Assembly: GCF_022869825.1 (NCBI RefSeq)
Contig: NZ_CP094971.1
Coordinates: 249,501 to 313,500, forward strand
DNA: 64,000 bases
Source: Clostridium sp. BJN0001
GTDB taxonomy: Bacteria > Bacillota > Clostridia > Clostridiales > Clostridiaceae
Reading direction: 5' to 3'
In this document: positions 13,838 through 57,229 of the stretch, piece by piece
How the letters are laid out: the number at the start of each line of letters is the position of its first letter
Numbering within the stretch: the first letter of the stretch is position 1
Program-made: the position numbers and the translations under genes
Notes under the pieces: model-generated
The model's database searches: none
The model's input: the letters and a program-made list of their open reading frames with translations, nothing else
Told to the model about the DNA's origin: nothing

Positions 13838-13856
13838 TAGAATAAATTTAATAGTA

Positions 13857-13965
13857 ATCTTCGGGGCAGGGTGAAATTCCCTACCGGTGGTAAAGCCCAC
13901 GAGCTATTTTTAGCATGATTCGGTGAAATTCCGAGGCCGACAGTAAAGTCTGGATGAAAGAAGAT
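13857..13965 (+). ncRNA. FMN riboswitch (RFN element)
   Basis: The conserved RFN segments are in order: ATCTTCGGGGCAGGGTGAAA, TACCGGTGGTAAAGCCCACG, GATTCGGTGAAATTCCGAGG, CCGACAGTAAAGTCTGGATG and the closing AAGAAGAT that pairs with the 5' ATCTTC. It binds FMN and, in Firmicutes, terminates transcription of rib genes. A terminator follows 30 bases later. Confidence 0.97.
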
Positions 13966-13994
13966 AGAATAAATAGTTTTATTTATGTATATTC

Positions 13995-22112: not shown

Positions 22113-22207
22113 TTGATAATTAAGAACTTATAGCCCCCCTAATTAGATTGGACAATATTAATTAAAATAATTAATATATAAATATGATAATTAGGAGGTC
22201 TTTTTAT

Positions 22208-22507
22208 ATGGAGAAAATTAAATTTAGAAGAACATTTACAGAGGAAGAAAGAGTTAAATTTGTTACTGAAGTTTTAGAGTCTGGAAGCAATATACTTATT
22301 GCTAAAAAATATGATATTAATGCTGTACAATTAAGCTATTGGGTAAATAATTACCGTAGATATAGGCAAACACTAGAACCAAAAGAACCAAAAGATACAA
22401 AATTGATACCTAATTATAAGCGCGAATATAAAAAAGCTCAGGAAAAAATTGAGGAGCAAAAACTAAAAATAGCTATTCTTGAAGATCTTCTAAAAAAAAA
22501 CAAATAA
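22208..22507 (+). CDS. IS3-family transposase OrfA
   Basis: The 99-residue protein has an N-terminal helix-turn-helix (FRRTFTEEERVKFVTEVLES ... IAKKYDINAVQLSYWVNNYR) and a C-terminal leucine-zipper-like coiled coil (AQEKIEEQKLKIAILEDLLKK). ATG 22208 lies 12 bases after GGAGG. It ends just after a run of nine A where OrfAB fusion is expected. Confidence 0.9.
   Translation: MEKIKFRRTFTEEERVKFVTEVLESGSNILIAKKYDINAVQLSYWVNNYRRYRQTLEPKEPKDTKLIPNYKREYKKAQEKIEEQKLKIAILEDLLKKNK
22492..22500 (+). other. Programmed -1 frameshift slippery site
   Basis: A run of nine A at the end of orfA, followed by C, is where the ribosome can slip from the orfA frame to the orfB frame. The orfB frame is open across it, with a stop just upstream at 22480. 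Confidence 0.75.
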
Positions 22508-23433
22508 CACTAGAATATAAAATTTTAAGTGCCCACAAATGGATTAAACTTGGATATAAAGTAACAATAGTACTTAAAATATTACGGATTTCTAGATCCA
22601 CATATTATTCAAAACAGAAATATATTGTTAAAAGAAGCTACGCTAACGTAGGTAGAAAGGTCCCTGGATACAGTTTAACATTCGATAATATCAAAATATC
22701 TGATATAACTATTCAAAAGTATATAACAGAAATTAGAAGTAAGAAAACATCGCGAAAATATGGATATAAAAAAGTTACCGGTGAGTTAAGATTTAGAAAG
22801 AAGTACAATTTAAAAATTAATAAGAAGAAAGTTAGAAGACTAATGAAAAATTTAAATTTATTAGGAAACTACTATAAAAGGCAGAAAAGAAGAATGTCAC
22901 GTACCTGCGAAAGCAGAAAAGTTACAGCTTCTAATCAATTATGGCAAATGGATATCAAATATGCATTTATTGCTGGTAATAAGAAAACAGCCTATATAAC
23001 TTCAATAATCGATGTTTTTGATAGAGAAATAGTGGCATATTCAATTGACCTATCTGCTACAGGTTCTGTTGCTAAAAAAGTTATGTTAGAAGCTCTATAT
23101 AACAGAGGCTTAAACTATGATAAAAATAAAACAGTAGTACTTCGTACCGATAACGGCAGTCAATTTATTAGTGGAGTTTTTGAGAAAGGATGCCTTGATG
23201 AAGGTGTTCTTCATGAAAGAATTCCAGTACACAGTCCAAATTATAATGCATTCATAGAATCATATCATAGATATCTTCAAGATGAATGCCTTACCGGAAT
23301 GATATATTGGAATTTAGATCACATAAAAAATGATGTAGGTGATTTTGTTTATAGATATAATCATGAGAGAATACATTCATCTATTGGATATATTCCTCCT
23401 CATGATTACTATCTAATGAAATTAGCAGCATAA
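22492..23433 (+). CDS. IS3-family transposase OrfB (produced by -1 frameshift)
   Basis: The frame is open from 22483 to 23433 without a start near its beginning, so it is expected as the second half of an OrfAB fusion made by -1 slippage on A9. It carries an HTH_21-like region (KYGYKKVTGELRFRKKYNLK) and an rve integrase core with the DDE residues in WQMDIKY, RTDNGSQF and NAFIESYH. Thirty-five residues separate the second Asp from Glu, the IS3 D35E spacing. It ends with the typical NHERIHSSIGYIPPHDYY. No disruption seen. Confidence 0.9.
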   Translation, partial: KKKQITLEYKILSAHKWIKLGYKVTIVLKILRISRSTYYSKQKYIVKRSYANVGRKVPGYSLTFDNIKISDITIQKYITEIRSKKTSRKYGYKKVTGELRFRKKYNLKINKKKVRRLMKNLNLLGNYYKRQKRRMSRTCESRKVTASNQLWQMDIKYAFIAGNKKTAYITSIIDVFDREIVAYSIDLSATGSVAKKVMLEALYNRGLNYDKNKTVVLRTDNGSQFISGVFEKGCLDEGVLHERIPVHSPNYNAFIESYHRYLQDECLTGMIYWNLDHIKNDVGDFVYRYNHERIHSSIGYIPPHDYYLMKLAA

Positions 23434-23494
23434 TTACAGAATATTAAGAACTAACGAGTATTAACTTAATATTGTCCATTTAACGGGGAGCCCT

Positions 23495-23760
23495 CCGAGG
23501 TGGAAATTCAATCTAATTGACAATGGACAATTTAGGTGGAAATTCCTACGGAATTTCATTATATGTTTTTTGCGATTCTCGCAAAAAAATAAAGCTTTCG
23601 CCTGAAGCGAAAGCTAAATCAATTCTATGTTTCTGCGTTAAAGCAGAAACTTCCACAATTGTCAATTGTCAATTTTTACATTAATTTAGGTTTCTGTGAT
23701 TTTGAGCAGAAACATCCCCATTTGTCATTTGTGCTTTGTCCTTTGATATTTGATATGTCA
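23495..23760 (-). repeat. Mosaic intergenic repeat, copy A
   Basis: Read on the minus strand from the deacetylase stop codon, the order is: heptamer tract (GACAAAGCACAAATGACAAA), palindrome GTTTCTGC..CAGAAAC (23690-23713), a second heptamer tract (ATTGACAATTGACAATTG), the same palindrome again (23629-23650), AGCTTTCGC..GCGAAAGCT (23593-23615), TTTTTTGCG..CGCAAAAAA (23566-23588) and GAAATTCC..GGAATTTC (23539-23557). It ends with ATTGTCC-type heptamers next to the IS3 right end. Confidence 0.85.
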
Positions 23761-32812: not shown

Positions 32813-32947
32813 GACAAAGTACAAATAAGGTTGTTTCTGTTTGAGCGCAGAAACTAAATTTATAAGCTTTTGCGTTTAGGCGAAAGCTTTAAGTCTTTTG
32901 CGAGAATCGCAAAAGACTCACCTCATTTGTCCTTTGTCAGCTGTCAA
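32813..32947 (+). repeat. Mosaic intergenic repeat, copy B
   Basis: Plus-strand order: heptamers (GACAAAGTACAAAT), GTTTCTG..GCAGAAAC (32833-32854), AGCTTTTGC..GCGAAAGCT (32865-32888), AGTCTTTTGCG..CGCAAAAGACT (32892-32918), then ATTTGTCCTTTGTC heptamers. It is a compact copy lacking the GAAATTCC palindrome. It abuts the 3' end of the SleB-type gene in the opposite orientation from the other copies. Confidence 0.8.
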
Positions 32948-40501: not shown

Positions 40502-40640
40502 AGGACAAATGACAAAGAACAAATGACAAATTAAATGACAAAGGACAAATGTGGAGGTTTCTGCTTAGGCACAGAAACCCCAAAACTTATGAGCTTTCGC
40601 TTCAGGCGAAAGCTTTTTGTCTTTTGTGACCTGTCATTTG
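40502..40640 (+). repeat. Mosaic intergenic repeat, copy C
   Basis: It starts at the base after the buk stop codon with heptamers (AAGGACAAATGACAAAGAAC and onward), then GTTTCTGC..CAGAAAC (40557-40578), AGCTTTCGC..GCGAAAGCT (40592-40614) and TGTCATTTG at the end. The GCGAGAATCGC and GAAATTCC palindromes are absent. Confidence 0.85.
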
Positions 40641-40641
40641 A

Positions 40642-40699
40642 AAAAAAGTGTCTATATAAAAATGATGATTAAAAATCATTTTTATATAGACACTTTTTT
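40642..40699. terminator. Very strong terminator hairpin after buk
   Basis: A perfect 25-bp inverted repeat (arms 40642-40666 and 40675-40699, loop GATTAAAA) ends in six T. The core reads AAGTGTCTATATAAAAATGA. Confidence 0.93.
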
Positions 40700-48798: not shown

Positions 48799-49246
48799 AA
48801 ATGACAAAGTACAAATGACAAAGGACATATTAAATGACAAAGTACAAATGACAAATGACAAAGATGGTTGTTTCTGCTTGGACGCAGAAACTTGGAATTT
48901 GATAGAATTGATAATGTGCTAATGTATAATTGATAATTATGGATGTTTCTGCTCAAAATCGCAGAAACCCAAATTAATGTAAAAATTGACAATTGACAAT
49001 TGACAATTGTGGAAGTTTCTGCTTGAGCGCAGAAAACAAAATTTATGAGCTTTCGCTTCAGGCGAAAGCTTTATTTTTTTGCGAGAATCTCAAAAAACCA
49101 TACAATGAAATTCCGTAGGAATTTCCACCTGAATTGTCCATTATCCATTATTAATTCTCAATTGCACAGGATTTCCACCACATTTGTCATTTGTCCTTTG
49201 AAAGTTTGTCCATTGTACTGTCATTTGTACTGTCCTTTAGCACATA
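48799..49246 (+). repeat. Mosaic intergenic repeat, copy D (longest)
   Basis: It starts 3 bases after the AIM24 stop. Order: long heptamer tract (ACAAATGACAAAGTACAAAT and variants), GTTTCTGC..GCAGAAAC (48870-48891), ATTGATA-type linker, the same palindrome (48945-48968), ATTGACA heptamers (about 48986-49010), the palindrome again (49015-49037), AGCTTTCGC..GCGAAAGCT (49048-49070), a GCGAGAATC hairpin with one mismatch (49074-49097), GAAATTCC..GGAATTTC (49107-49125), then ATTGTCC and TTTGTCATTTGTCC heptamers. Confidence 0.9.
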
Positions 49247-49332: not shown

Positions 49333-49353
49333 TTTTGCAATTATAATGCAGAA
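49333..49353 (+). promoter_or_regulatory. Operator-like palindrome, downstream copy
   Basis: TTTTGCAATTATAATGCA is the exact reverse complement of the main part of the upstream copy. It covers the expected transcription start region and ends 1 base before the GGAGGT ribosome site. Confidence 0.6.
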
Positions 49354-49367
49354 TGGAGGTTTATAAA

Positions 49368-50699
49368 ATGTTACTAGAGTTTAAGACAAAAAATTATAAG
49401 TCTTTTGTGGAGGAAACGAAGTTTTCTATGCTTGCAGCACCAAAGCAAAAAGGACTTGATTATAGTTTGTGTGAAAAGAAAATAAAAGGAAAAACATTAA
49501 AGGGGCTATGCTCCTCAGTGATTTATGGACCTAATGCAGCAGGTAAAACAAATATTATCGGAGCAATGGATGTATTTCGTGCAATTGTTTTAAGAGGAAA
49601 TATAAGAAATTCAGAGGAAAAAGCATCTCCAAATACAGCATCAGCTGAGTTGGAATTAATTCCAAATAATAAATGTAAAACTGCTCAGCCAGTTGAATTT
49701 TCAGTTGATTTTTTTGAAAATGGATTAAGAATTGAATATAGTGTTAGTGTTGATTTAGGAACGTTCCTTGATAGTGAATATAAGAGAAAAATTTTATCCG
49801 AAAAATTGATAGTGGATGGAGACGAAGTTTTTTGTAGAACTAAAGATTTATCTTTTGGTAATTTAAAAGTAATAAAAGATTATCTTTCTGATCCAATGAA
49901 GCAAAACATGGAGGGTGCTATTGATATAGCAAAAAATAGTTTAAATCAAGAGGAACTATTTTTGATAAATGGATTTAAACTTATTTTTTCACAGAAATTT
50001 GTTAAGCTTATAACAGATTGGTTTACAAATAAGTTTATGGTTATTTATCGTGCAGATTCCATGCAGCTTATTAAACGATTTGCTGATCCACAAAAAAAAG
50101 CAGTATATGTTGAAAAAACAACAGATGAAGCTGCTAAGCTTTTTGGAATAAATTCTAATGCAGTAGGTTATGTTGTTAGTGATGATGATTCAGAGGCAAA
50201 GTTATGTTCTATATTTAAAGATGTTAAAAATAAAAAAAGTACTGCTATAGCAGCAGAGATTTTTGAGTCTTATGGGACAATTCGATTTATCAATATGTTT
50301 CCACTTGTAATTCGTGCAATCCAAACTGGAGGAACATTGGTAGTTGATGAATTTGATGCATCAATTCATCCAATGGCTCTTATGAGTATTATTAATATTT
50401 TTCATAATGATGATATAAATATTAATCATGCTCAATTAATTTTTAACACTCATAATCCAATTTTTCTTAACTCAAATCTTTTTAGAAGAGATGAAATCAA
50501 ATTTGTGGAAAGAGATGATGATAATCATGATAGTACACTGTATGCACTATCAGATTTTGGGACAACAGGAGAAAAAGGTGTTCGTAAAAATGAAGATTAT
50601 ATGAAAAATTATTTTGTAAGTCAATATGGAGCTATAAAGGACATTGATTTTGTACCTATATTTGAAGAAATCCTTGCAACTAAAAATGAGGTGGTGTGA
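49368..50699 (+). CDS. AAA family ATPase, RloA/AbiLi-like (COG1106)
   Basis: The 443-residue protein has an ABC/SMC-like ATPase split around a central insert. Walker A is YGPNAAGKTN (54-61), N-terminal FKTKNYKSFVEETKFSMLAA is typical of the family, and the Walker B stretch is GGTLVVDEFDASIHP (about 330) with a following His switch in FNTHNPIFL. Such ATPases pair with RloB/AbiLii proteins in abortive-infection loci. ATG 49368 follows GGAGGT. The next ORF, starting 3 bases after the stop, is too short to be a whole partner. Confidence 0.88.
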   Translation: MLLEFKTKNYKSFVEETKFSMLAAPKQKGLDYSLCEKKIKGKTLKGLCSSVIYGPNAAGKTNIIGAMDVFRAIVLRGNIRNSEEKASPNTASAELELIPNNKCKTAQPVEFSVDFFENGLRIEYSVSVDLGTFLDSEYKRKILSEKLIVDGDEVFCRTKDLSFGNLKVIKDYLSDPMKQNMEGAIDIAKNSLNQEELFLINGFKLIFSQKFVKLITDWFTNKFMVIYRADSMQLIKRFADPQKKAVYVEKTTDEAAKLFGINSNAVGYVVSDDDSEAKLCSIFKDVKNKKSTAIAAEIFESYGTIRFINMFPLVIRAIQTGGTLVVDEFDASIHPMALMSIINIFHNDDININHAQLIFNTHNPIFLNSNLFRRDEIKFVERDDDNHDSTLYALSDFGTTGEKGVRKNEDYMKNYFVSQYGAIKDIDFVPIFEEILATKNEVV

Positions 50700-50846: not shown

Positions 50847-51218
50847 TATACAATACAAATAATTGATAATGCGTTAATTGATAATTGATAATGTGCAAAT
50901 TGATAATTGTGGTTGTTTCTGCTCAAAATCGCAGAAACCCCAAATTAAATGACAAAGTACAAATGACAAAGGACAAATCAGGAAGTTTCTGCTAAGTCGC
51001 AGAAACCAAAATATATGAGCTTTCGCTTCAGGCGAAAGCTTTATTTTTTGCGTAAAACGCAAAAAACCACCTAAATTGTCCATTGTCCATTGTCAATTAG
51101 ATTTGATTTCCACCTAAATTATCAATTAGAATTTATTCCTATATCATTTGTCATTTGTCCTTTAACCATTTGTCATTTGCACTGTCCTTTGTCATTTAAC
51201 AATTTGTCATTTAGCATG
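50847..51218 (+). repeat. Mosaic intergenic repeat, copy E
   Basis: It begins at the stop of the short ORF. Order: ATTGATA heptamers, GTTTCTGC..GCAGAAAC (50915-50938), GACAAAGTACAAATGACAAA heptamers, the same palindrome (50985-51006), AGCTTTCGC..GCGAAAGCT (51018-51040), TTTTTTGCG..CGCAAAAAA (51044-51066), ATTGTCC-type heptamers, and long TTTGTCA/TTTGTCC tracts to about 51218. The GAAATTCC palindrome is missing. Confidence 0.88.
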
Positions 51219-54522: not shown

Positions 54523-54537
54523 ATAGAAAATTAAAAA

Positions 54538-54640
54538 CTTATCAAGAGAGGTGGAGGGACTGGCCCGTTGAAGCCCAGCAACCAATAATAGATTATTATT
54601 ATATGGTGCTAATTCCTGGAGTGTTTTACTCAGAGATAAG
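54538..54640 (+). ncRNA. SAM-I riboswitch (S-box)
   Basis: The conserved S-box pieces are present in order: CTTATCAAGAGAGGTGGAGG, GACTGGCCCGTTGAAGCCCA, GCAACC, TGGTGCTAATTCC and the closing GAGATAAG that pairs with CTTATC. It binds S-adenosylmethionine and favours the terminator at 54669. Confidence 0.96.
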
Positions 54641-54668
54641 AAGTATTTTCTTAGAATGTGTTGTTAAT

Positions 54669-54703: not shown

Positions 54704-54735
54704 TATATAAAAAGCTTTAAATTTTAATAAAGCGG

Positions 54736-54898
54736 ATATAAGGTGCTTTTAGAAATAAAAGATAATAGGGAATCAGGTTAGAATCCTGAGCAGCACCCAC
54801 TACTGTATTTTGGACGAAATTTCTATATCCACTGCTTACTATAAAAGCGGGAAGGAGAAAGAGTAGGCTGATAATAAGTCAGGAGACCTGCCTTATAT
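54736..54898 (+). ncRNA. Cobalamin riboswitch
   Basis: ATATAAGGTGC opens the element; AATAGGGAATCAGGTTAGAA, GAGCAGCACCCACTACTGT, GCGGGAAGG and the B12-box-like AATAAGTCAGGAGACCTGCC follow in order, and CCTTATAT closes P1 with ATATAAGG. No terminator with a T-run follows, so control of translation is more likely than termination. Confidence 0.92.
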
Positions 54899-54940
54899 TT
54901 AATTTAAGCCCTTGGGGATGAGGGATAAGGAGGAAAAAAT

Positions 54941-57229
54941 ATGTTAAAAACAACTATTTCAGGCTATCCAAGGATAGGCAGAAAAAGGGAACTAAAATTT
55001 GCTACTGAAAAGTATTTTAAGGAGCAGATAACAAAGGAAGAATTTTTAAAAACATCACAAAATTTAAGGAAAGAGTATTTTATGATACAGAAAAACAAAG
55101 GTATAGATATAATACCTGTCAATGATTTTTCTTATTATGATAATATTCTTGATACAGCTTATATGCTTAATGTCATACCGAAAAGATACAAAGATTTAAA
55201 TCTTGATAATCTTGATACATATTTTGCTATGGCAAGAGGATATCAGAAAGATGGAAATGATGTAACAGCACTTGCTATGAAAAAATGGTTTAATACAAAT
55301 TATCACTATATTGTACCAGAGATAGATGATTATACAGAGTTTAAGCTTAATGATACAAAAATATTTGACCTTTATGATGAGGCAAAAAAATTAGACATAA
55401 ATGCAAAACCTGTGATAATTGGACCATTTACGTTTTTAAAATTATCTAAGATTAATACAAAAAGAAGTTTTGAAGATCTTTTAGATAGTCTTGCAGATGT
55501 ATATTCTAACATATTTGATAAGTTAGATGAAAAAGGTGCATCATACGTTCAGATAGAAGAACCTGAACTTGTAAAAGATATTACAGATGATGAATTTAAA
55601 CTTTTTAAATCTGTATACTCTAAGATATTTAAAAAGAAATATAAATTTGAGTCTATACTTCAAACTTATTTTGGAGATATAAGGGACATATATAAAAACA
55701 TTTCTGAATTACAATTTGATATAATAGCTCTTGATTTTGTTGAAGGAAAAGAAACTTTAAACTTAATCAGAAAGTATGGTTTTCCAAAGAATAAAAAGCT
55801 TATTGCTGGAATAATTAATGGAAAAAATATATGGGTTAATGATTATAAAAAATCTATTGAAGTATTAAAAGAAATTGAAAAAAATATAGATAGAGACAGA
55901 ATTATTTTAGGTACAAGCTGCTCACTTTTACATGTACCATATACAGTAAAAAATGAGACAAAACTTGCAGATGAGTACAAAGAGAGCATGGCTTTTGCTG
56001 AGGAAAAACTTGATGAACTTAAAGAAATTAAAATTTTAGAAGACAATAAAGATTATGAAAACAGCAGTGAATTTGTTGCAAATGGTCTTATTTTAAAGAG
56101 AAAGAGAGAAAATAAGTTATGCTTCTTAAAAGAAGTCAGAGAAAAAATAAAGAATTTAAAACCATCTGATTTTAGAAGAAAAGAAAGTTTTGATACAAGA
56201 CGTGATTTTCAAAAAGAAGAATTTAACTTACCACTACTTAAAACAACAACAATAGGTTCATTCCCTCAGACAGCAGAGATTAAAAATGAAAGAAAAAAAT
56301 TTAGAAATGGAATTATAAAAGAAGGAGAATATAATAATTTCTTAAAGAAAAAAATTGATGAAGTTATAAAATTTCAAGAAGATATAGGACTTGATGTTCT
56401 TGTACATGGAGAATATGAGAGAACAGATATGGTTGAATATTTTGGAAAACTTCTTCAAGGATTTTTATTTACAGAAAACGGCTGGGTTCAGTCATATGGG
56501 ACAAGAGGGGTAAAGCCACCTATAATATATGGAGACATAAAAAGAGTAGAGCCTATGACTGTAAAGTGGATAAAATATGCACAAGAAAAGACTGAAAAGC
56601 CTGTTAAAGGTATGCTTACAGGGCCTGTCACAATTCTAAACTGGTCATTTAAAAGAGAAGATATTGACATTAAGTCAATAATGTATCAGATTGGTATTGC
56701 AATAGGTGAGGAAGTTCTTGACCTTGAGAAAAATGGAATAAAGATAATACAGATAGATGAAGCAGCTTTAAGAGAAAAGCTTCCTCTAAGAAAGAGTGAT
56801 TGGCAGAAAGAATATCTTGATTTTGCAATTCCTGCATTCCGTCTTACAAATGCAAAGGTAAAAAAATCAACTCAGATTCACACACATATGTGCTATAGTG
56901 AATTTAACGATATAATAAAGGCTATTGATGATATGGATGCTGATGTTATATCTATAGAGGCAGCAAGATCAGATTTCTCTATTCTTGATTTTCTAAAAGA
57001 AAATAACTTTAGACTTGAAATAGGACCAGGAGTTTATGATATACATTCTCCAAGAGTTCCATCAGAAGAAGAAATAGAAGATGCAATAAAAATAATGCTT
57101 TCAAAAATAGATGCTGATAAGCTATGGATAAATCCTGACTGTGGACTTAAAACAAGAGGAACAGAGGAAACTATAAAAAGTCTTAAAAATTTAGTTAATG
57201 CAGCTAAAAAAATAAGAGAAGAGCTTTAA
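54941..57229 (+). CDS. metE: Cobalamin-independent methionine synthase
   Basis: The 762-residue enzyme moves the methyl group of methyl-tetrahydrofolate to homocysteine. The N-terminal domain starts TTISGYPRIGRKRELKFATE; the C-terminal catalytic domain shows TTTIGSFPQTAEIKNERKKF, LVHGEYERTDMVEYFG, GMLTGPVTILNWSF, IDEAALREKLPL and the zinc ligands in QIHTHMCYSEF and WINPDCGLKTR. AAGGAGG precedes the ATG. It is expressed only when both SAM and cobalamin are low, if both leader switches repress. Confidence 0.97.
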   Translation: MLKTTISGYPRIGRKRELKFATEKYFKEQITKEEFLKTSQNLRKEYFMIQKNKGIDIIPVNDFSYYDNILDTAYMLNVIPKRYKDLNLDNLDTYFAMARGYQKDGNDVTALAMKKWFNTNYHYIVPEIDDYTEFKLNDTKIFDLYDEAKKLDINAKPVIIGPFTFLKLSKINTKRSFEDLLDSLADVYSNIFDKLDEKGASYVQIEEPELVKDITDDEFKLFKSVYSKIFKKKYKFESILQTYFGDIRDIYKNISELQFDIIALDFVEGKETLNLIRKYGFPKNKKLIAGIINGKNIWVNDYKKSIEVLKEIEKNIDRDRIILGTSCSLLHVPYTVKNETKLADEYKESMAFAEEKLDELKEIKILEDNKDYENSSEFVANGLILKRKRENKLCFLKEVREKIKNLKPSDFRRKESFDTRRDFQKEEFNLPLLKTTTIGSFPQTAEIKNERKKFRNGIIKEGEYNNFLKKKIDEVIKFQEDIGLDVLVHGEYERTDMVEYFGKLLQGFLFTENGWVQSYGTRGVKPPIIYGDIKRVEPMTVKWIKYAQEKTEKPVKGMLTGPVTILNWSFKREDIDIKSIMYQIGIAIGEEVLDLEKNGIKIIQIDEAALREKLPLRKSDWQKEYLDFAIPAFRLTNAKVKKSTQIHTHMCYSEFNDIIKAIDDMDADVISIEAARSDFSILDFLKENNFRLEIGPGVYDIHSPRVPSEEEIEDAIKIMLSKIDADKLWINPDCGLKTRGTEETIKSLKNLVNAAKKIREEL

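Follow-up and report, generated by a model that had tools for sequence, protein, structure and literature searches.

A modular, heptamer-armed palindromic repeat, probably also a transcription stop signal, at gene 3' ends of a Clostridium genome

The window analysed here, a stretch of 64,000 nucleotides, consisted of bases 249501–313500 of a single-contig Clostridium genome of 2,688,791 bp (2.69 Mb). Five intergenic elements of related build could be located in it (Table 1). A butyrate kinase gene, identified by NCBIfam, lies beside element 3, and by its product the nearest named relatives were Clostridium neonatale (92% identity) and other Clostridium species. An ORF for an AAA-type ATPase (AAA_21) between elements 4 and 5 gave a weak match, far below the cut-off, to the MADS3 defence ATPase. 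An IS3-like element consisting of HTH_Tnp_1 and rve ORFs appears to terminate within the right arm of element 1, and its flank sequence also abuts another element at about 755.8 kb (G000). Two more repeated sequences abut elements, one at 329–330, 375, 450 and 517 kb and the other at 379, 456 and 461 kb; mobile elements may land repeatedly in these repeats. The Rfam search of the window at gathering score revealed FMN, SAM and cobalamin riboswitches only, with no match to an element; the SAM and cobalamin aptamers stand in tandem, 81 bases apart, upstream of a single ORF. When eight element loci were searched against Rfam up to E 0.01, one c-di-GMP-II riboswitch was obtained, outside the element.

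Two models were used for homology searches. R1 is a covariance model built from 35 complete copies of this genome, after 5 of 40 regex elements had been dropped for lacking module D. R2 was built without this genome, from 23 two-hairpin elements of other species, 9 of the 32 elements extracted from relatives having been dropped from its alignment.

Table 1. Features of the window, with module positions and matches to models R1 and R2.
Feature	Position	Strand	Content	R1 match	R2 match
IS3-like element	22184..23495		HTH_Tnp_1 and rve ORFs
Element 1	23495..23760	-	right heptamer arm; D 23539-23557; C 23566-23588; B 23593-23615; A 23629-23650; second A (degenerate) 23690-23713; left heptamer arm to 23760	G000:273026-273163 minus, E 2.7e-27	23526-23662 plus, E 2.3e-4
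Element 2	32813..32947	+	heptamers; A variant 32833-32854; B variant 32864-32889; C 32892-32918; without D; inverted heptamers	G000:282320-282431, E 5.4e-13
Element 3	40502..40641	+	heptamers from butyrate kinase stop codon; A 40557-40578; B 40591-40615; C reduced (no complete C); without D; short right arm	G000:290044-290184, E 3.3e-10
Hairpin 3' of element 3	40647..40694	+	separate, terminator-like; not part of element
Element 4	48799..49246	+	heptamers 48799-48865; A 48870-48891; heptamers; A 48945-48968; heptamers 48985-49012; A 49015-49036; B 49047-49071; C 49074-49097; D 49107-49125; inverted heptamers to 49246	G000:298502-298638, E 1.3e-27	49003-49138 minus, E 0.0011
Terminator signature of element 4	49047..49080	+	B hairpin and T-rich tract common to C left arm (consensus tool and scripted scan)
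ATPase ORF	49353..50699		AAA_21
Element 5	50847..51218	+	heptamers; A 50915-50938; heptamers; A 50985-51006; B 51017-51041; C 51044-51066; without D; inverted heptamers	G000:300472-300580, E 3e-18
FMN riboswitch	13853..13969
SAM riboswitch	54536..54642
Cobalamin riboswitch	54724..54909
ORF downstream of the aptamers	54941..57229

Read in the sense direction, a full element consists of 7-nt tandem units, one to three copies of hairpin A, then hairpins B, C and D, and inverted 7-nt units. The left-arm units are AAATGAC, AAAGGAC, AATTGAC and kin. Hairpin A is formed by GTTTCTGC..GCAGAAAC, hairpin B by AGCTTTCGC..GCGAAAGCT, hairpin C by TTTTTTGCG..CGCAAAAAA and variants, and hairpin D by GAAATTCC..GGAATTTC; exact module B was searched as GCTTTCGC..GCGAAAGC. 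Exact B was found four times and exact A five times in the window, and neither occurred in 100 shuffles each. The whole genome contained 43 exact B (control pattern 0) and TTTCTGC..GCAGAAA at 72 places (control 0). At 34 of the 43 exact B places A was present before and C and D after, eight places were without one or two of A, C and D, and one (365.9 kb) had none of these nearby. A reversed order, with A after or D before B, was observed at 0/43 exact B places of the whole genome; since each place was read on whichever strand had the better support, this tests consistency rather than orientation. The original prediction of a fixed module order with variable module presence was confirmed by these counts, and the genome-wide module search that had been proposed as a check revealed modules that were not scattered and kept their order at exact B places. 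The grammar ascribed to all five regions was found in the order of their modules, but some modules are missing from elements 2, 3 and 5. As in BOX-type repeats, ordered modules occur with a variable inner copy number, since one to three A are present per window element. As in MITEs, terminal inverted repeats are present, here as inverted heptamer arms whose heptamer number and exact ends vary.

A coding function of the elements was rejected. Mechanical ORFs of 80 and 95 aa overlap element 4, against the claim that no ORF lies inside, but they bear no sign of being genes.

Computed folds indicated a structured RNA. Element 4 gave a z value of -9.65, with 0/100 shuffles as stable, and the copy at L022:15040-15265 gave -11.7, with 0/200 shuffles as stable, while a control fold of 61 nt inside a gene gave -0.24. 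In the fold of the latter copy the heptamer arms pair into one long outer stem, and the loop enclosed by it carries hairpins A to D. Hairpin C was missed by RNAalifold because of alignment gaps and was scored directly instead. Its inner pairs were GAG/CTC in 6 copies, GCG/CTC in 1, GCG/CGC in 32 and GAG/CGC in 0 (P 2e-6), and its outer pairs were TA..TA in 13, TA..AA in 1, TT..TA in 2 and TT..AA in 23 (P 2e-7); this strict count used 39 of 56 copies, leaving out 17, and the copies are related rather than 39 independent events. A looser count of 43/56 copies, in which the copy at 802721 was read through into its neighbour, gave the same result. The closing pair of D was C-G in 39, T-A in 6 and C-T in 2 cases (n=47), and the B stem was nearly invariant in the 35 aligned copies, which had been picked by a pattern requiring most of that stem. 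Structural selection or a palindrome-perfecting copying process would both produce the covariation of hairpin C. Within this genome, pairing of a copy's own arms was not better than pairing with arms of different copies (P 0.13; three nested copies sharing a right arm were left out); this quantitative test took the place of an earlier regex arm-type test, which was not significant (P 0.10).

Rearrangement at the hairpins is shown by composite copies in which a second element starts inside module C of the first (517.5, 659.9 and 802.7 kb), and by a junction at 366.0 kb where A is joined straight to D, with B and C lost. Simple forms with one hairpin and heptamer arms could also be seen in the same genome and region (L016:275-352 on the minus strand, L019:18950-19017 and L019:19638-19717); it is possible that these are simple relatives or remnants of the multi-hairpin elements. 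The composite copies and the A-D junction, as well as the 7-nt tandem arms and their variable heptamer number, are also what replication slippage and template switching could leave if arms and palindromes were made in place and hairpins perfected there, with no mobility at all. Such an origin is very unlikely, as module sequence and order are conserved over dozens of loci and cannot arise independently.

The R1 search revealed 56 strong copies in this genome (sense matches, E < 1e-8), of which 52 lie within 146–803 kb, a quarter of the chromosome. Among 20,000 simulations with uniform placement, the best window of the same size held 32 copies at most versus the 52 observed, and with neighbours merged, 34 of 38 loci fell in the domain versus 23 in the largest simulated case; the window size was chosen after the data had been seen, and each simulation was scored by its own best window. 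Exact heptamer triples, 42 in this genome, occur between 298 and 765 kb. The dnaA gene starts at base 7 of the chromosome; on this basis the origin was placed close to base 0, which puts the window on the right arm. Accordingly oriented, 47/56 copies run with replication, with the terminus assumed opposite the origin and gene orientation left aside. Nearby copies were not clearly more alike than distant ones in this genome (P 0.05–0.12).

BIMEs are multi-copy extragenic palindromes in inverted arrangement, and together with matS they are comparison models for arrays that organise a chromosomal domain. A protein-binding array of that sort, organising one domain, would be in keeping with the clustering of 52/56 copies far above the simulations and with the near invariance of the pattern-selected B stems. 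We consider it unlikely. The domain covers a portion of one arm and begins 146 kb from the origin, while the skew changes sign only between 1.32 and 1.60 Mb (sampled stretches); modules come and go between copies; and elements of the wider family described below occur chromosome-wide in G028 (2 contigs) and G030 (1 contig), among the places listed. The confinement to one chromosome quarter is explained neither by random insertion nor by any domain signal known to us.

Strong R1 matches were found in this genome only, since 67 other genomes of the genus gave six single weak matches of 33–40 bits; the one in G085 is at the same place as an R2 match. Exact module B had no match in a collection of genome contigs (from which the window's own genome is possibly absent) or in viral contigs, its pattern had none in 58 relatives, and the elements had none against plasmids.

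The placement of elements relative to genes was surveyed with a simple gene caller in approximately 0.6 Mb of fetched stretches, which yielded 297 gaps of at least 30 nt. An element was present in 49 of them (25 tandem plus, 8 tandem minus, 15 convergent and 1 divergent). Divergent gaps accounted for 1/49 with an element versus 45/248 without (P 0.002), and the single case, at 375.9 kb, was an error of the caller, which had taken a spurious ORF overlapping the element where a short plus-strand ORF ends at it. Convergent gaps accounted for 15/49 with versus 29/248 without (P 0.0016), and in tandem gaps 31 copies lay in gene sense and 8 opposite (P 3e-4). The predicted location at gene 3' ends was thus borne out, with one divergent gap among 49 and that one spurious. 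The avoidance of divergent gaps would also be expected if harmful insertions were simply removed.

In the sense direction, module B runs into a T-rich tract which doubles as the left arm of C, giving the GC-containing hairpin and T-tract of an intrinsic terminator. The terminator consensus was matched by B at 40591, 49047 and 51017, the three copies in the scanned part; the scanned region held 16 terminator-like sites versus 3.5 in shuffles, and the consensus tool additionally reports B on the other strand, where the tail is poorer. The assertion that the elements are not standard terminators is contradicted, for module B, by this signature. A scripted scan revealed a terminator signature within the element span at 37/41 3' ends with a sense copy, mostly module B, and at 8/22 with a reversed copy; the span was the model match ± 60 nt, and some native terminators (e.g., that of butyrate kinase) are counted inside it. 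A terminator outside the element was additionally present at 8/41 sense ends. Such outside terminators were found at 5/30 convergent ends with an element versus 30/58 without (P 0.0014), at 6/33 versus 57/174 tandem ends, and at 11/63 versus 87/232 of all ends (P 0.0025). Judged by these sequence signatures, the repeat is probably a transcription stop signal as well; we infer actual termination and a transfer of terminator duty.

At the butyrate kinase locus the element lies between the stop codon and a further terminator hairpin, which is probably the gene's own terminator. The five relatives displayed show a comparable hairpin after the stop codon, and in none of them does an element lie between stop codon and terminator. 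One of the five, C. weizhouense, has a family-type match beyond the terminator, and it gave the only match when R2 was run over 80 named butyrate kinase loci.

A purely selfish or neutral MITE-like repeat could owe its 3' placement to removal from promoters and genes, the termination by B being incidental, and this is a possibility of some weight though not the one we prefer. A further terminator hairpin is present beside the butyrate kinase copy, no common function is obvious by eye for the genes that separate neighbouring copies, and the convergent enrichment of the pneumococcal BOX, RUP and SPRITE repeats has been read as that of possible parasitic repeats (PMC3049150). Against it stand the sense orientation bias of 31:8 and the scarcity of other terminators at element-bearing convergent ends.

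The suggestion that the elements are dispersed and MITE-like agrees with the 56 strong copies and their inverted heptamer arms. Dispersal by copying and mobility are inferred. No target-site duplication was seen by eye, the element ends within heptamer tracts not being sharp, and no empty site was found within the species. No autonomous copy or mover was found either, and on visual inspection nothing unusual was apparent among the genes lying between copies separated by less than 3 kb. Mobilisation as a REPIN or BIME by a Y1 (RAYT) transposase was considered because Y1_Tnp genes were present in 12/12 element-rich relatives examined, although IS200/IS605 transposases share that Pfam family. It is hardly credible for these elements: Y1_Tnp is absent from this genome, 20 fetched stretches surrounding 21 of the 28 listed Y1 places contained no R2 match up to E 0.05, and several Y1 genes are flanked by unlike palindromes. 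The BIME-like interpretation of the original prediction, taken as Y1/RAYT mobilisation, is not supported by these results. The palindromes in question are ACCCCTGGGGT, GGTGACAGTCACC and GGGACGGTT..AACCGTCCC, which accompany RAYT-like Y1 genes at L300-L302, L305-L307 and L309-L311; these loci are likely REP-RAYT systems in Clostridiaceae.

Related elements were sought beyond this genome. Heptamer triples were present in 7/68 genomes of the genus, this one included; the backward control, which reads CAGKWAA, also matched 7/68 genomes at 32 places, none of them in this genome, and AACAGTT-type heptamers were found in two of the control-matching genomes. The triples of G005 and G072 flank an ordered arrangement of heptamers, GGATG, hairpin 1, an AT-rich spacer, hairpin 2 and inverted heptamers; such hairpins were not evident around the triples of G028, G069 and G003. 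The pattern GACAATNNNRGATGAAAT occurred in 13/206 family genomes (21 times in G005, 13 in G191, 8 in G206, 6 in G030, 2 each in G022, G072 and G085, and once in six others), and as its backward control gave one match each in 8/206, the single matches (6/13 genomes) are meaningless alone; four matches were plainly coding sequence. The stem of hairpin 1 had at least 8 pairs in 18/23 extracted elements, its pairs 6 to 8, which the search left unfixed, exchanging C-G, T-A and A-T; the lower five pairs were fixed by pattern and finder and are no evidence, and broken pairs end the stem and go uncounted. Just beyond the right arm of several G005 elements (e.g., at L214, L216 and L221) there is a repeated hairpin, GTGGCGTAGCCAC, followed by T's, which resembles a separate terminator module.

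With R2, at least 42/206 family genomes from 10/46 genera matched at E 0.001 (22 candidates scored per genome), and among 391 genomes of the class at least 3, all of this genus, matched at E 1e-4 (12 candidates scored per genome). The two best window matches fell on elements 1 and 4, each on the antisense strand relative to the terminator. In the alignment hairpin 1 of R2 pairs with D and the right foot with the foot of A, and most of C, B and A falls in an unaligned stretch of 65 nt. Another 530 kb of stretches from this genome yielded 8 matches up to E 0.05 (best 0.0013), five on known copies and three others that were read as one-hairpin forms, one with both arms and two with the left arm only. 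R2 recovered 7/56 copies at the thresholds used on fetched sequence, and at E 0.001 over the whole genome of the window it found 0 copies among the 22 candidates scored. Owing to this low recovery, membership of the wider family rests on marginal similarity together with shared build. Both the R2 core match and 7-nt periodic inverted arms were found in the elements of this genome. From sequence comparison, the element looks like an elaborated, enlarged member of a Clostridiaceae-wide family of heptamer-armed hairpins.

The arms were analysed in 27 of the 42 R2-matching genomes, one locus each, 6 of the 27 having given sequences to R2. The best arm period was 7 in 22/27, 14 in 4/27 and 11 in 1/27, and mean arm self-match was 0.48 at lag 7, 0.44 at lag 14 and 0.26–0.32 at the other lags from 3 to 13, each arm including 10 modelled bases. 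Twenty further loci from 6 genomes gave a best lag of 7 in 9, of 14 in 8 and others in 3. The heptamer unit varies by genome (AATTGAC, AATTAAC, AACAGTT, AAGTGAC, AATTTAA, CAGGTTT and others). A locus's own left and right arms, taken outside the model, shared a mean of 6.85 complementary 6-mers versus 2.80 (sd 0.62) with another genome's arm, with 0/20,000 permutations as high, and the duplex energy also differed between own and other arms (P 0.0011); in 7/27 loci (G081, G085, G016, G177, G196, G092 and G067) the own pair was not above its average with others. Arms were more alike within than between genomes (25 loci from 6 genomes, 0/5,000 permutations). Shared ancestry contributes to this likeness; two-sided complementary change is predicted by a paired stem or by coupled copying.

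One rather speculative extension, which we hold to be doubtful, is a clade-wide repeat whose heptamer 'address' is rewritten per species on both arms simultaneously while the hairpin core is kept. If true, the rewriting would require a trans-acting factor that reads or copies DNA or RNA seven nucleotides at a time, and such a factor, co-evolving with the repeat, would be an undescribed dispersal machinery. Few small interspersed repeats have a known mover; here, arms that vary over many genomes yet mostly remain complementary would allow the mover to be sought through its co-variation with the heptamer.

The reading we prefer, with a probability of roughly 0.55, is that of an interspersed palindromic repeat which is non-autonomous, has a novel build, and spreads as copies that act as gene 3' ends. 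Each copy consists of two inverted arms of 7-nt units that can pair into a long stem around hairpins. Their number is as a rule two in the Clostridiaceae elements read from other genomes and up to six here, where B and C stand between D, the counterpart of the family's hairpin 1, and A, the counterpart of its last hairpin. Copies may spread by copying or transposition and persist where harmless, directly after stop codons. The sense RNA would adopt a multi-branched fold in which B and its U-tract form an intrinsic terminator, and copies may in this way have taken over as 3' ends of many neighbouring genes. This suggests repeats that deliver ready-made transcription terminators to gene ends.

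The view that the elements belong to no named family was upheld, as none matched in Rfam and no description of this heptamer-armed family was found in the part of the open-access literature that was searched. Cyanobacterial STRRs are intergenic 7-nt tandem units. The TAACTGA repeats of Beggiatoaceae, Cyanobacteria and Bacteroidetes also consist of intergenic 7-nt tandem units, but they are reported as direct repeats, and in one genome most of them lie immediately before start codons (PMC4679880). In the present elements, by contrast, the heptamers are inverted arms around hairpins after stop codons. Clop-1 of C. perfringens (93 bp) and Clot-1 of C. tetani (74 bp) are likewise intergenic stem-loop families of Clostridium, compared here by listed length and type (PMC2267715). 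REPINs share extragenic palindromes in inverted, multi-copy arrangement (PMC3116915). The link of REPIN and BIME to RAYT does not extend to the present elements, there being no Y1 here and no family element near the tested Y1 genes of relatives. Closest in build is BOX of S. pneumoniae (boxA-boxBn-boxC), a modular stem-loop RNA of fixed order with a variable number of inner modules and enrichment between convergent genes; it differs in that the description compared here mentions no heptamer arms (PMC3049150). In likely effect, the closest known system appears to be SPRITE of S. pneumoniae, which is interspersed, bears an intrinsic-terminator signature and is enriched between convergent genes; it is described as an 18-bp duplex with a long U-rich tract (PMC3049150), whereas here the terminator is one of several hairpins within a closed outer stem.
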